Shown here in pieces: positions 10,077 through 24,560 of a stretch of DNA of 36,587 bases. The notes beneath the pieces are model-generated. The model was not told the DNA's origin. It made no database searches and saw nothing but the letters and a program-made list of their open reading frames with translations. The DNA is from Candidatus Parcubacteria bacterium (GTDB lineage: Bacteria > Patescibacteriota > Minisyncoccia > Phycocordibacterales > Phycocordibacteraceae), in the NCBI GenBank assembly GCA_021731495.1, contig JAKFXG010000017.1, forward strand, positions 1-36,587, given 5' to 3'. The translations under genes and the position numbers were made by a program. Each line of letters begins with the position of its first letter. Positions within the stretch are counted from its first letter, which is position 1.

Positions 10077-10219
10077 GAGTGAGGACAAGAAACGAACTTC
10101 CTCGTTCGGGTTATTGCTCCGAACGAGCCGCCTACATCGAGTCCTCGAAGATATAGGCGCGAAGTGAGGAAACGTGAGCGTGTCCTTACGGAGAACTCTA
10201 CACGATGGAGCTGCTCTCT
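10077..10219 (-). repeat. tRNA-Lys 5'-end duplications and mini acceptor-stem remnant
   Basis: On the plus strand, TATAGGCGCGA(A)GTGAGGA at 10152-10170 repeats the tRNA-Lys 5' end and its flank at 10068-10085. CGCCTA (10129-10134) can pair with TAGGCG (10154-10159), leaving an acceptor-like stem with most of the tRNA deleted. GGAGCTGCTCT at 10207-10217 repeats tRNA-Lys 10046-10056. A separate inverted repeat CTCGTTCGG/CCGAACGAG lies at 10101-10127. No gene is seen here. Confidence 0.55.
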
Positions 10220-11059
10220 TCAATACGTTTTTTTTGTATGACTTGCGAAGCGCTCCATGAGATCCCGGGTAACGGGACCGGGCGTTCCGGGGCCAATGGT
10301 GTGCCCGTCCACTGAAGCGATAGGCACGATGTCCTTAAATGACGAAGTAATGAATACTTCGTCTGCACCAAGAAGTTCGTCGATAGGCACAGCGCGTTCC
10401 TCGACAGGGTAGGATTCACGCGCGAGCTCGAGGGTAACTTTGCGCGTGATGCCGTGCAAGATATTTTCTTTTGGTGTGACGATGTTGCCGCCCCGCACGA
10501 TAAAAACATTGCTGCCGGTGCACTCAAGTACCATGCGGTTTGCAATGTATAGAACTTCGACCGCACCCGCTTCCTTTATTTTCTTCTGGAGAAGGACTGC
10601 GGTGATGTAATTGGTCGTCTTATACGCAGGAAGGAATCGCTGATGTTCGTACGTGAGCATCGGAGCGCCATCAGTATAAAATTTTTCCGGGAGCGGGACC
10701 GCCGGTTCTGCAGTGATGAAAAACGTCTCGCGTCCGGCAACGTGCTCAATGCCACCTTTCGCTTCACCTCCCGTAAGGATCATTCTGATGTTTGCGCGCC
10801 GACCGGCGGAATTTTTTTCGATGACCGCCCGCGTGGCCTCAAATGCTTCTTTTTCAGAGAAGGGGAGTGAGAGTTCGAGCGCGCGAGCGGAAGTCTCAAA
10901 TCGCTTCCAGTGATCGTTGAAATGAAATGGCTCTCCGGTGAATGCGGTGATGCCCTCGTAGATGCCAAAACCGCGAAGTAGTCCGAGATCCGCAAGGCCT
11001 ACGTGAGCATCCTTGAAAGGAATGAGGGAACCATTCAGAAAACAAATATGGTCATTCAT
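10220..11059 (-). CDS. class IV PLP-dependent aminotransferase (branched-chain or D-amino-acid type)
   Basis: 279 residues. The N-terminal CFLNGSLIPFKDAHVGLADL and GFGIYEGITAF are typical of the BCAT/DAAT/ADC-lyase fold. The PLP lysine is in YKTTNYI, followed by GAVEVLYI, ECTGSNVFIV, PKENILHGITRKV and ADEVFITSSFKDIVPI. The fold is certain, but substrate choice (branched-chain amino acid, D-amino acid or aminodeoxychorismate) cannot be settled by eye. I prefer ATG 11059 over the upstream GTG 11068 because a TATAGT -10 hexamer (11069-11074) directly abuts the GTG. No other amino-acid biosynthesis gene is near. Confidence 0.85.
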   Translation of the reverse strand: MNDHICFLNGSLIPFKDAHVGLADLGLLRGFGIYEGITAFTGEPFHFNDHWKRFETSARALELSLPFSEKEAFEATRAVIEKNSAGRRANIRMILTGGEAKGGIEHVAGRETFFITAEPAVPLPEKFYTDGAPMLTYEHQRFLPAYKTTNYITAVLLQKKIKEAGAVEVLYIANRMVLECTGSNVFIVRGGNIVTPKENILHGITRKVTLELARESYPVEERAVPIDELLGADEVFITSSFKDIVPIASVDGHTIGPGTPGPVTRDLMERFASHTKKTY

Positions 11060-11222: not shown

Positions 11223-11297
11223 GGCCCGGTGGTGAAGTGGTAACACAGCGGTCTGCAAAACCGCGATGCGCGGGTTCAATTCCCGCCCGGGCCTCCA
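11223..11297 (+). tRNA. tRNA-Cys (GCA)
   Basis: Acceptor GGCCCGG/CCGGGCC with encoded TCCA, anticodon stem GCGGT/ACCGC with loop CTGCAAA (anticodon GCA) and T-arm GCGGG-TTCAATT-CCCGC. Twenty bases of its 3' end recur at 11419-11438. Confidence 0.93.
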
Positions 11298-11438
11298 CGA
11301 TATCATGATGCTGAATCATGATTGGGAATTGAATGCCGCAGCGATGCTTGGCCAGCAGGCCGAGCCGCGAGGCGGGACCGAGGAAATTCTCGAGCGACGG
11401 CGAGAGAATTATCCGTGGTCAATTCCCGCCCAGGCCTC
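11298..11438 (+). repeat. tRNA-Cys-associated element bounded by a copy of the tRNA 3' end
   Basis: The interval ends with TCAATTCCCGCCCAGGCCTC (11419-11438), which differs at one base from the 3' end of tRNA-Cys (11276-11295). Inside, 11365-11411 (CCGCGAGGCGGGACCGAGG...) aligns without gaps to the minus strand of 18933-18979 near tRNA-Trp, 35 of 47 bases identical. Also present are the inverted repeat TCATGA/TCATGA (about 11304-11322) and AATTCTCG..CGAGAGAATT (about 11385-11410). No credible ORF. Confidence 0.65.
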
Positions 11439-11461
11439 ATTCAGCAGAATGACCTACTGGG

Positions 11462-18846: not shown

Positions 18847-19055
18847 GTCGGCGAGCCCACCAGGACCGCGAGTACGCTTATCGAAGCTTACAGCTTCAGT
18901 ACACTAAGAGTTCGTCATTTTGCGGTCACAGATATTTTACTCGTCGTCACTCGCAAAATTCCGCGACCCCGCCTCGTGGATTTCCGTGCTCGGAAATCAT
19001 CACTGCGTCTCCCGCAAAAGAGAAAAACCTGGAGCAGTCCAGGTTTTTTCATTTG
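18847..19055 (-). repeat. tRNA-Trp-associated element bounded by a partial copy of the tRNA 3' end
   Basis: GCGAGCCCACC (18851-18861) repeats the tRNA-Trp 3' end GCGGGCCCACC (19055-19065) with one mismatch, in the same orientation, 204 bp downstream of it. Between them 18924-18975 (GGTCAC...CGCGACCCCGCCTC) contains the core shared with the tRNA-Cys and tRNA-Leu elements. Other repeats here: AAGCTTACAGCTT-type pairs near 18885-18897 and GATTTCCG..CGGAAATC (18979-18999). No credible ORF. Confidence 0.65.
19023..19048. terminator. terminator downstream of tRNA-Trp
   Basis: AAAAACCTGGA-gcag-TCCAGGTTTTT, perfect 11-bp stem, placed 8 nt past the tRNA 3' end on the minus strand. Confidence 0.9.
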
Positions 19056-19126
19056 CGGGCCCACCCTGACTCGAACAGGGATTACGCGGTTTGGAGCCGC
19101 GCGTTCTACCATTGAACTATAGGCCC
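19056..19126 (-). tRNA. tRNA-Trp (CCA)
   Basis: Acceptor GGGCCTA/TGGGCCC, anticodon stem CGCGG/CCGCG with loop CTCCAAA (anticodon CCA) and T-arm CCCTG-TTCGAGT-CAGGG. The 3' CCA is not encoded. Its 5' end lies 11 nt after the stop of the HTH/LAGLIDADG-like gene on the same strand. Confidence 0.93.
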
Positions 19127-23118: not shown

Positions 23119-23292
23119 TGTTGTGCCGGGAGAGGCTCGGTCACGCTTTACTAATTCGCTTCGCTCATAAGTATGCGCGACCCCGGCTCACTGTCCTCGC
23201 AAAGCCTCGGACATGGTTCCGCCATTCGAGTCTCTCCCGCGTGACGCGCAGGCGTCACGCTTCCCGGCACAGCTTTCGCTCTGCTCAATCTG
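23119..23292 (-). repeat. tRNA-Leu-associated element bounded by copies of the tRNA 3' end
   Basis: TGTGCCGGGAGAG occurs at 23122-23134 and again at 23291-23303, where it is the 3' end of the truncated tRNA-Leu; the two are 169 bp apart in direct orientation. 23139-23189 (GGTCAC...CGCGACCCCGGCTC) is the third copy of the core seen near tRNA-Trp and tRNA-Cys. Also present: GCGTGACGC-gcag-GCGTCACGC (about 23239-23260) and TCCCGGCACAG..CTGTGCCGGGA inverted arms. No credible ORF. Confidence 0.65.
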
Positions 23293-23351
23293 TGCCGGGA
23301 GAGAGACTCGAACTCTCATGTCTTTCGACGAGGGGTTTTGAATCCCTTGCG
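23293..23351 (-). pseudogene. truncated tRNA-Leu (CAA) remnant
   Basis: The minus strand keeps an anticodon loop TTCAAAA (CAA) with stem AGGG/CCCT, variable arm GTC-gaaa-GAC, T-arm GAGAG-TTCGAGT-CTCTC, and 3' acceptor TCCCGGC plus A. The 5' acceptor strand GCCGGGA and the D-arm are missing; an unrelated GC-rich inverted repeat follows instead. It cannot form a normal tRNA. The intact tRNA-Leu(CAA) lies 17 nt away. Confidence 0.75.
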
Positions 23352-23368
23352 CCCCAGCACGAAAACGC

Positions 23369-23453
23369 TGGTGCTGGAGGTGGGAGTCGAACCCACAACC
23401 CTTGCGGGACACGATTTTGAGTCGTGCGCGTATACCAATTCCGCCACTCCAGC
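23369..23453 (-). tRNA. tRNA-Leu (CAA)
   Basis: Acceptor GCTGGAG/CTCCAGC with encoded ACCA, anticodon stem CACGA/TCGTG with loop CTCAAAA (anticodon CAA), a long variable arm and T-arm GTGGG-TTCGACT-CCCAC. Confidence 0.93.
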
Positions 23454-23564: not shown

Positions 23565-24542
23565 ATGAAGGACGATGCAGGCTATATACCGACCAAGTAC
23601 GACTCGGTCTTCTGGATCGACGTCGATCGGATCATACCAAACCCGTACCAGCCGCGGAAAGAGTTCACCGAATCGGGCCTTATTTCGCTTGCGGAGAGCA
23701 TCCGTCAGTATGGTGTCCTGCAACCGCTTGTCGTCAGCCGCACCGAAGTGGAGAAACCGGAAGGCGGACTTGAGAGCATGTACGAACTCATTGCGGGCGA
23801 GCGGCGCTTGCGGGCAAGCAAGCTTGCGGGTCTGAAGCAGATACCGGTGGTCATCCGTCAGGGCGAAAGCAATCTCACGAAACTCGAGCTTGCCATCATT
23901 GAGAATCTTCAACGGGAGGACCTGAATGCTATTGACCGCGCAAAGGCCCTCCAGAAACTTATTGACGAATTCGGCATATCACATGCCGAGACCGCAGCTA
24001 AGATCGGCAAGAGCCGTGAATATGTCTCCAACAGTCTTCGTCTGCTTTCTCTGCCCGAGCACATGCAGAGTGCGATCGTGGGGAAGGAGATCAACGAGGG
24101 TCATGCCCGCCCACTCCTCGCCCTTACCAGTCGCCCGGAAGAGCAAGAGACTCTTTTCAAAGAAATCATTTTAAAGCGATTACCGGTTCGTGCCGCCGAG
24201 CGCATTGCGCGCTCCATTGCGCAAGAGAAGGTACGTAAATATCACCGAAAGACGGCGGAGATGGTCGAGCTCGAAAAGTCGCTCACGGAGACGCTCGGCA
24301 CGCGTGTCATCATAGAGACCAATGCCGAGGGAGGGCGATTGCTTATAGAATTTTTCTCGCCGGACGACCTGCAACAATTAGTCGATACCCTCGCCGCACA
24401 GCAGCAAACCGAAGAAGTTGCTGCAGTTCCCACACAAATATTTCCGAACACTACTCAGCTCTCGGATGACCCTATAGCCGCCGCGGCGCCGGAAGAATCT
24501 TCCGAAGACGGGCTTTATTCAGTGAGTGGTTTTTCCGTATAG
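23565..24542 (+). CDS. parB: ParB/Spo0J-family chromosome partitioning protein
   Basis: 325 residues. CTPase clamp that loads at parS sites. N-terminal domain: IIPNPYQPRKEF (about residues 24-35), LAESIRQYGVLQPLVV and the GERR box LIAGERRLRASKLAG. Central KorB/HTH domain: IENLQREDLNAIDRA, ETAAKIGKSREYVSNSLRLL and EGHARPLLAL. A C-terminal dimerisation region follows a short linker (LESLTETLGTRVII-like, FFSPDDLQQLVDTL). The tail (about 290-325) is acidic and low complexity. parA is not adjacent, and no parS-like 16-mer was recognised here. Confidence 0.92.
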   Translation: MKDDAGYIPTKYDSVFWIDVDRIIPNPYQPRKEFTESGLISLAESIRQYGVLQPLVVSRTEVEKPEGGLESMYELIAGERRLRASKLAGLKQIPVVIRQGESNLTKLELAIIENLQREDLNAIDRAKALQKLIDEFGISHAETAAKIGKSREYVSNSLRLLSLPEHMQSAIVGKEINEGHARPLLALTSRPEEQETLFKEIILKRLPVRAAERIARSIAQEKVRKYHRKTAEMVELEKSLTETLGTRVIIETNAEGGRLLIEFFSPDDLQQLVDTLAAQQQTEEVAAVPTQIFPNTTQLSDDPIAAAAPEESSEDGLYSVSGFSV

Positions 24543-24560
24543 GTCAGGCATCCAGTTTTC

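Follow-up and report, generated by a model that had tools for sequence, protein, structure and literature searches.

What is the same folded core doing behind several tRNA genes of one small bacterial genome, and why is it bordered on both sides by copies of the gene end next to which it lies? The question is raised by a stretch of 36,587 nucleotides from Candidatus Parcubacteria bacterium (assembly GCA_021731495.1, contig JAKFXG010000017.1, positions 1 to 36,587), called here the window, which is contig C8 of a genome of 30 contigs and 665,720 bases and holds six tRNAs. An initial annotation, made from the letters of the window alone, had noticed that the 3' end of tRNA-Trp is repeated downstream around a core, and that this core recurs in the same orientation relative to the tRNA at tRNA-Cys and at a tRNA-Leu fragment. 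Both observations hold: the repeats are present in the sequence, and the shared core is recovered by a repeat search within the window, in which the Cys and Trp units share 81 nt at 72% identity, and by a covariance model. The reading that we favor, to which we give about an even chance, is that these units are mobile cassettes that insert in the 3' ends of tRNA genes, and also of tmRNA, topA and rplK, that are moved in trans and have an anatomy like that of integron cassettes. That they move in trans into gene 3' ends, being both mobile and nested in their targets, is on comparison of the sequences very probable, whatever the chemistry.

Read in the sense of the tRNA, the parts of a unit follow one another in a constant order: the 3' end of the gene (X), a spacer hairpin (P0), an arm complementary to X (Xrc), a core of two hairpins (P2 and P3) and a second, direct copy of the gene end (X'). 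The units of the window are made up as follows.

19055..19126, minus strand: tRNA-Trp, anticodon CCA, the host gene, whose 3' end is the repeat X (ARAGORN; Rfam RF00005, 65.7 bits)
about 19023..19049, minus strand: spacer hairpin P0 of the Trp unit, loop CTGC (sequence and fold)
19011..19019, minus strand: Xrc arm of the Trp unit, TTTTGCGGG, the complement of the tRNA-Trp 3' end (sequence, arm comparison)
18925..19010, minus strand: core P2-P3 of the Trp unit, ending ...GTGAC (covariance-model match 18916-19020, E 2e-23; fold; covariation)
18915..18924, minus strand: X' of the Trp unit, CGCAAAATGA, the second, direct copy of the tRNA-Trp 3' end (sequence, arm comparison)
11223..11297, plus strand: tRNA-Cys, anticodon GCA, host gene of the Cys unit (ARAGORN, Rfam)
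11302..11322, plus strand: spacer hairpin P0 of the Cys unit (sequence)
11324..11333, plus strand: Xrc arm of the Cys unit, GGGAATTGAA (sequence, arm comparison)
11334..11419, plus strand: core P2-P3 of the Cys unit (covariance-model match 11324-11428, E 8e-27; folding z -4.5)
11420..11439, plus strand: X' of the Cys unit, CAATTCCCGCCCAGGCCTCA (sequence, arm comparison)
23292..23355, minus strand: tRNA-Leu 3' fragment, host end of the Leu unit, downstream of the intact tRNA-Leu at 23369-23453 (ARAGORN, sequence)
23225..23238, minus strand: Xrc arm of the Leu unit, GGGAGAGACTCGAA (sequence)
23140..23224, minus strand: core P2-P3 of the Leu unit (covariance-model match 23131-23234, E 3e-20; folding z -5.3)
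23122..23139, minus strand: X' of the Leu unit, CGAGCCTCTCCCGGCACA (sequence)

The units share a common structure, in which Xrc pairs with X' in a closing stem that encloses P2 and P3. Each of the three units of the window folds better than all 200 of its shuffles (z -3.3, -4.5 and -5.3), and further copies, likewise compared with shuffles, yield z values of -4.1 to -7.2. Compensatory changes are seen at 30 of the 38 pairs among eight copies of the own genome. When 86 copies are aligned, 93.1% of cells pair, two-sided changes occur at 37 of the 38 pairs and the covariation score reaches 0.594, above all 500 shuffles, as against 0.175 when shuffled and 0.06-0.09 with the partner slid; this alignment was fitted to the model, which biases it toward structure, yet the slid-partner controls score much lower. 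There is an excess of G-T pairs over A-C mismatches (94 versus 31 and 136 versus 66), which persists with one fixed G-T pair removed and places the predicted fold on the tRNA-sense strand, as RNA or as single-stranded DNA. The consensus of the core is about RGCCGNAG...GTGAC, the next base being the C of X'. Upstream of the cores CTGC is the commonest tetraloop (62 copies among tetraloops closed by 5 bp); in many copies this spacer loop is complementary to AGCAG in the P2 loop region, and a contact between the two loops is possible. In scans with Rfam 15 nothing in the core scored above the gathering threshold; the only families to reach it were tRNA, tmRNA and group I intron.

How far does the family extend? 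In the own genome the covariance model detects 13 copies, with E values from 8e-27 up to about 1e-5; together with the folding scores and the covariation, these values speak against a chance resemblance. With the same model, copies are found in 45 of 59 genomes of relatives and in 22 of 25 genera, ranging from 0 to 34 per genome and patchy inside the own genus; genome-wide occupancy of tRNAs was derived from these searches. Across the phylum 55 of 380 genomes match under stricter filters. A scan of GTDB contigs for the P3 sequence pattern returned at least 118 copies; the titles among the matches listed include Kaiser-, Nomura-, Taylor-, Yonath-, Zambryski-, Lloyd-, Adler-, Vogel-, Harrison-, Peri- and Saccharibacteria, along with bins called only 'bacterium'. 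Viral contigs hold no match to the strict P3 pattern, the looser pattern not having been searched there. Judging from these matches, the elements appear to form a family of Patescibacteria that is carried by several groups and resides at gene ends.

The association with gene ends is tight. Among 123 distinct copies, most of them fetched by the covariance model, which excludes the tRNA itself but includes the arms, the distance downstream from a same-strand tRNA or tmRNA is at most 100 bp for 91 and at most 500 bp for 106. With the P3 sequence alone, 84 of the 118 copies among the matches listed are located within 150 bp downstream of a same-strand tRNA, compared with 4.0% of random positions on the same contigs. 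The enrichment at tRNA 3' ends and the flanking repeats of those ends are thus as the initial annotation had proposed for a tRNA-targeting element, and tRNA ends do dominate, but the targets reach further. The hosts comprise all 20 tRNA isotypes, tmRNA and the 3' ends of topA and rplK; several exceptions to the tRNA location are in this way gene ends themselves. The topA end serves as host in five genomes by inspection, four being recognised by script, and in the own genome (locus L054) the host is a gene that, from reading its sequence, we take to be rplK.

The arms, which comprise 10-40 nt of the resident gene end, fit the gene next to which they lie. Their median score against their own gene is 31 for Xrc and 27 for X', as compared with 13 and 12 against other tRNAs. 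In 45 copies Xrc stops at position -20 of the tRNA (T54), and in a further 15 it stops at -4; X' begins at C56 or near the acceptor end, its start falling at position -18 (C56) in 27 copies. In copies where both boundaries are readable the commonest offset between Xrc and X' is +2 (30 copies), the rest being scattered, part of this scatter arising where diverged starts mislead the longest-match method. The end of the gene is accordingly found as a direct repeat that starts from a fixed crossover point, and comparison of the arms places insertion at one of two such points, either in the T-loop ahead of C56 or close to the acceptor end.

Most units, usually 140-205 bp long, are without open reading frames (ORFs). 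The initial annotation had described all of them as non-coding, which does not stand, since some carry genes in gaps of 0.8-3.5 kb that precede the core. The main ORFs in these gaps (ORFs of at least 100 aa were considered) all run in the tRNA-to-core direction, and their products include a DUF6632 protein, an inositol-phosphatase-like protein, a radical SAM/SPASM protein together with an unassigned one, and a ResIII helicase with INT_rpt repeats, among others. No recombinase family is represented among the cargo proteins scanned, and no integrase gene belonging to the element was met inside it. Cores also occur in tandem arrays.

Evidence for movement comes from comparing the same locus between relatives. 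Of 30 tRNA-Cys loci in the same genus, nearly all beside the same gene of 113 aa, presumably rbfA, 6 have a unit directly behind the tRNA and the rest have none. Where the locus has the convergent arrangement seen in the window, it is filled in genomes G000 and G013 and empty in G003, G005, G009 and G059. For 116 of the 123 copies the nearest core is not at the same tRNA, and pairs of cores 90-98% identical, whose shared sequence is confined to the stretch from about the core start to GTGACC, are found at Val/Ser, Cys/Ala, Ile/Cys and Leu/Asp tRNAs, in each case with arms that match the local gene. A mini-element moved in trans and targeting tRNAs, as suggested in the initial annotation, is thus supported by the enrichment, the end repeats and the empty sites; cores are neither scattered regardless of tRNAs nor fixed, one tRNA-Cys locus being both filled and empty within a genus. 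At topA both X and X' are coding ends. Between them L251 and L301 show 13 synonymous codon changes and 3 non-synonymous ones, and L227 shows 6 and 4. Given that mostly synonymous divergence is not expected of a displaced, untranslated copy, the codon pattern indicates that one of the two ends is foreign.

By what mechanism would such a unit move? We propose that recombination takes place on a folded strand of the element. Once it is excised, Xrc, core and X would be contiguous, and the closing stem would present a double-stranded mimic of the target end. A site-specific recombinase acting in trans would then join element and resident gene at ...NN|CR...; the gene would be completed by the copy brought in, and its resident end displaced beyond the core as X'. 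This would be the logic of integron cassettes, in which a gene and a folded site travel together and form arrays, with tRNA and other gene ends serving as attachment sites. Were a gene end carried along and integrated conservatively, a foreign end such as that at topA would be expected. The likeness to cassettes and their attC sites lies in the order of parts (target copy, gene, target inverse, variable folded part, target copy), in structure being kept over sequence, as the covariation score indicates, in tandem arrays and in a co-oriented ORF followed by a folded site. While sequence comparison shows the anatomy, fixed insertion points, patchiness with empty sites, locally fitting arms, a foreign topA end and some co-oriented cargo, the folded-strand, integron-like step is proposed more tentatively, at somewhat less than an even chance. 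The differences from integrons are considerable: the boxes GTTRRRY (3') and RYYYAAC (5') at the stem base of attC are found in 0 of 241 cores, the arms contain 10-40 nt of the resident gene end where attC has a 7-nt box, and the anchor is not a single attI but the ends of tRNA and other genes. Several findings weigh against our reading. For the attC sites of integrons the recombining strand is the bottom one (PMC2727003), whereas the G-T bias favors the tRNA-sense strand for the fold here. Cargo is limited to a minority of units, and the eight gene-bearing gaps are a small sample. Searches in the own genome and the 59 relatives linked no recombinase to the element; a Xer-like integrase, searched for as the general family PF00589 and not as IntI specifically, is present in 52 of the 59 relatives, mostly as one copy, with or without the element (p 0.34; this and the other p-values for gene association take no account of phylogeny or of the incompleteness of metagenome-assembled genomes). 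Nor does a plain attP model account for near-identical cores bearing arms for different genes, or for Xrc reaching 2 nt past the start of X'.

The last two features suit better an element that is guide-armed or copies its target, in which Xrc would be read off, or paired with, the target strand at insertion, so that every insertion would produce its own arms by templated synthesis (through a single-strand transposase, reverse transcription primed from the terminator hairpin or foldback replication), and X' would be a target duplication. In its guide-armed form a constant folded core would move, and Xrc would be a nucleic-acid guide re-derived from each new target, spanning the insertion point with 2 nt upstream and 10-40 nt downstream. 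Long near-perfect repeats of X and X' that include trailer and hairpin (37 nt in L138, 40 nt in L066 and about 60 nt in L203) favor this explanation, and so does the finding that X, spacer and Xrc often make one long palindrome around a terminator-like hairpin. The topA ends, which differ mainly at synonymous sites and so were separate functional ends before they met, suit the integron-like model better, and RVT_1, the reverse transcriptase family, is missing from the own genome and shows no association with the element (Fisher p 0.23). Taken as a whole we consider a guide-armed or copying element rather unlikely, and the guide-armed form by itself a little more so; if true, one core family would be reprogrammable to any tRNA or conserved gene end and able to deliver genes. 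Smaller still is the probability of a REP-like element moved by a RAYT (Y1/HUH) transposase, with P2 and its GGAG, GCAG or GTAG tag as the recognised hairpin. REPs and REPINs are likewise short, folded, non-coding units in many copies, and their GGAG/GTAG-like tag before a hairpin may have a counterpart in the GNAG tag matched in 165 of the 241 cores; RAYT-like Y1 proteins are enriched, being present in 31 of 46 element-bearing versus 3 of 14 element-free genomes (Fisher p 0.004). RAYT was not, however, detected in 15 element-bearing genomes, among them G044 (13 copies, rated 100% complete) and G020 (12 copies), and of 52 loci fetched around recombinase, transposase and reverse transcriptase genes (RAYT genes in 20 cases) a single one contains a core. 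The elements differ from REPs also in their strict location at gene ends and their target-matching arms; to our knowledge REPs do not copy target ends as arms. We regard as very improbable a static, vertically inherited structured RNA or terminator for tRNA 3' maturation. The strong covariation on the tRNA-sense strand and the very tight link to tRNA 3' ends are what it would lead one to expect, and the structured part of this alternative, raised in the initial annotation, does hold. Its static part is opposed by the empty tRNA-Cys sites, by copy numbers of 0 to 34 between related genomes, by occurrence at topA and rplK ends, by the same core at different tRNAs and by cargo genes between copies.

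Beyond integrons and REPs, the closest known systems are prophages, integrative and conjugative elements and satellites with tyrosine integrases that nest in tRNA genes, for which displaced tRNA 3' fragments have been described (PMC9897764). These share with the cassettes proposed here the insertion in the T-loop or 3' part of the tRNA, the displaced 3' fragment, the use of protein-gene 3' ends, the foreign topA 3' end and the empty sites in relatives. They are unlike them in that the units here are small and without an integrase gene, and that one core family, folded and with an Xrc arm, occupies all 20 isotypes. With the IS110/IS1111 family and its bridge RNA the element has in common a structured non-coding part and an offset of 2 nt, which hint at a role as a guide, but IS110 transposase is present in only 4 of the 59 relatives. 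A literature search on Patescibacteria repeats, structured RNAs, RAYT, integrons and tRNA integration sites, with mostly open-access coverage, gave no description of the element. Within this incomplete coverage the family seems to be new, each known family considered failing at least one tested defining feature.

Candidate enzymes were also examined one by one. Serine recombinase, reverse transcriptase, IS110 and RAYT were each rejected as the required enzyme, being missing from element-rich genomes; the resolvase does not track the element (Fisher p 0.75) and was not detected in G050, which has 34 copies, or in G045, G048, G049 and G022. Autonomous copies adjoining such enzyme genes were likewise rejected, with a core in only one of the 52 loci. 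An IS110-type transposase at G050:C26:6148-6579 lies about 700 bp from a core (C26:5337-5442).

The lineage of the Patescibacteria is large and for the most part uncultured, its genomes are tiny, and we know of few mobile systems described for it. Gene-carrying folded cassettes that dock at tRNA ends would give these bacteria an integron-like uptake of DNA. The hundreds of natural target-arm pairs would aid in finding a recombinase with easily read target rules, and the family would account for odd tRNA fragments and repeats around Patescibacteria tRNA genes.

Returning to the window, two more features are found beyond the Trp unit.

18881..18904, minus strand: second short hairpin motif, GTGTACTGAAGCTGTAAGCTTCGA (motif search)
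about 18850..18865, minus strand: distal partial copy of a tRNA-Trp 3' end, TCCTGGTGGGCTCGCC (sequence comparison)

The distal copy is the one that the initial annotation had taken for the far border of the element. It is present, but X' at 18924-18915 is closer, and TCCTGGTGGGCTCGCC is 14/15 identical to the tRNA-Trp 3' end of relatives, TCCTGGTGGGCCCGC, fitting the window's own tRNA-Trp more poorly. Its place behind the second hairpin motif suggests that a further, degenerate unit ends here. This motif, GTRTACTG..CTGTAAG..CGA, occurs in the window and also in L249, L293, L239, L100, L119, L068 and L079, and at several of these other loci leads directly into a tRNA 3' half; it has 29 matches in 3.7 Mb, is found within 400 nt of 8 of the 241 cores, and may be another core type.

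Three further arrangements were observed around tRNA genes. A mirror layout, in which the 5' half of a tRNA-Glu is broken at the T-loop by a core just upstream of an intact tRNA-Glu, occurs as follows.

L051, 1501-1582, minus strand: mirror tRNA-Glu form
L120, 3265-3347, minus strand: mirror tRNA-Glu form; also in L256, L294, L311 and L340

An element lies behind a tRNA-Asn that holds a group I intron (Rfam RF00028, 69 bits; ARAGORN) in L003, that is G000:C7 around 23900-24550. Upstream of tRNA-Lys in the window, at 10077-10240 on the minus strand, is a second type of repeat, with pieces like the tRNA-Lys 5' end and the motif ATGTAGGC...CTCGTTCGGAG; related sequence is found upstream of tRNA-Arg(CCG) in L005, with a score just above shuffles, and upstream of tRNA-Lys in L198, where it is clearly above.
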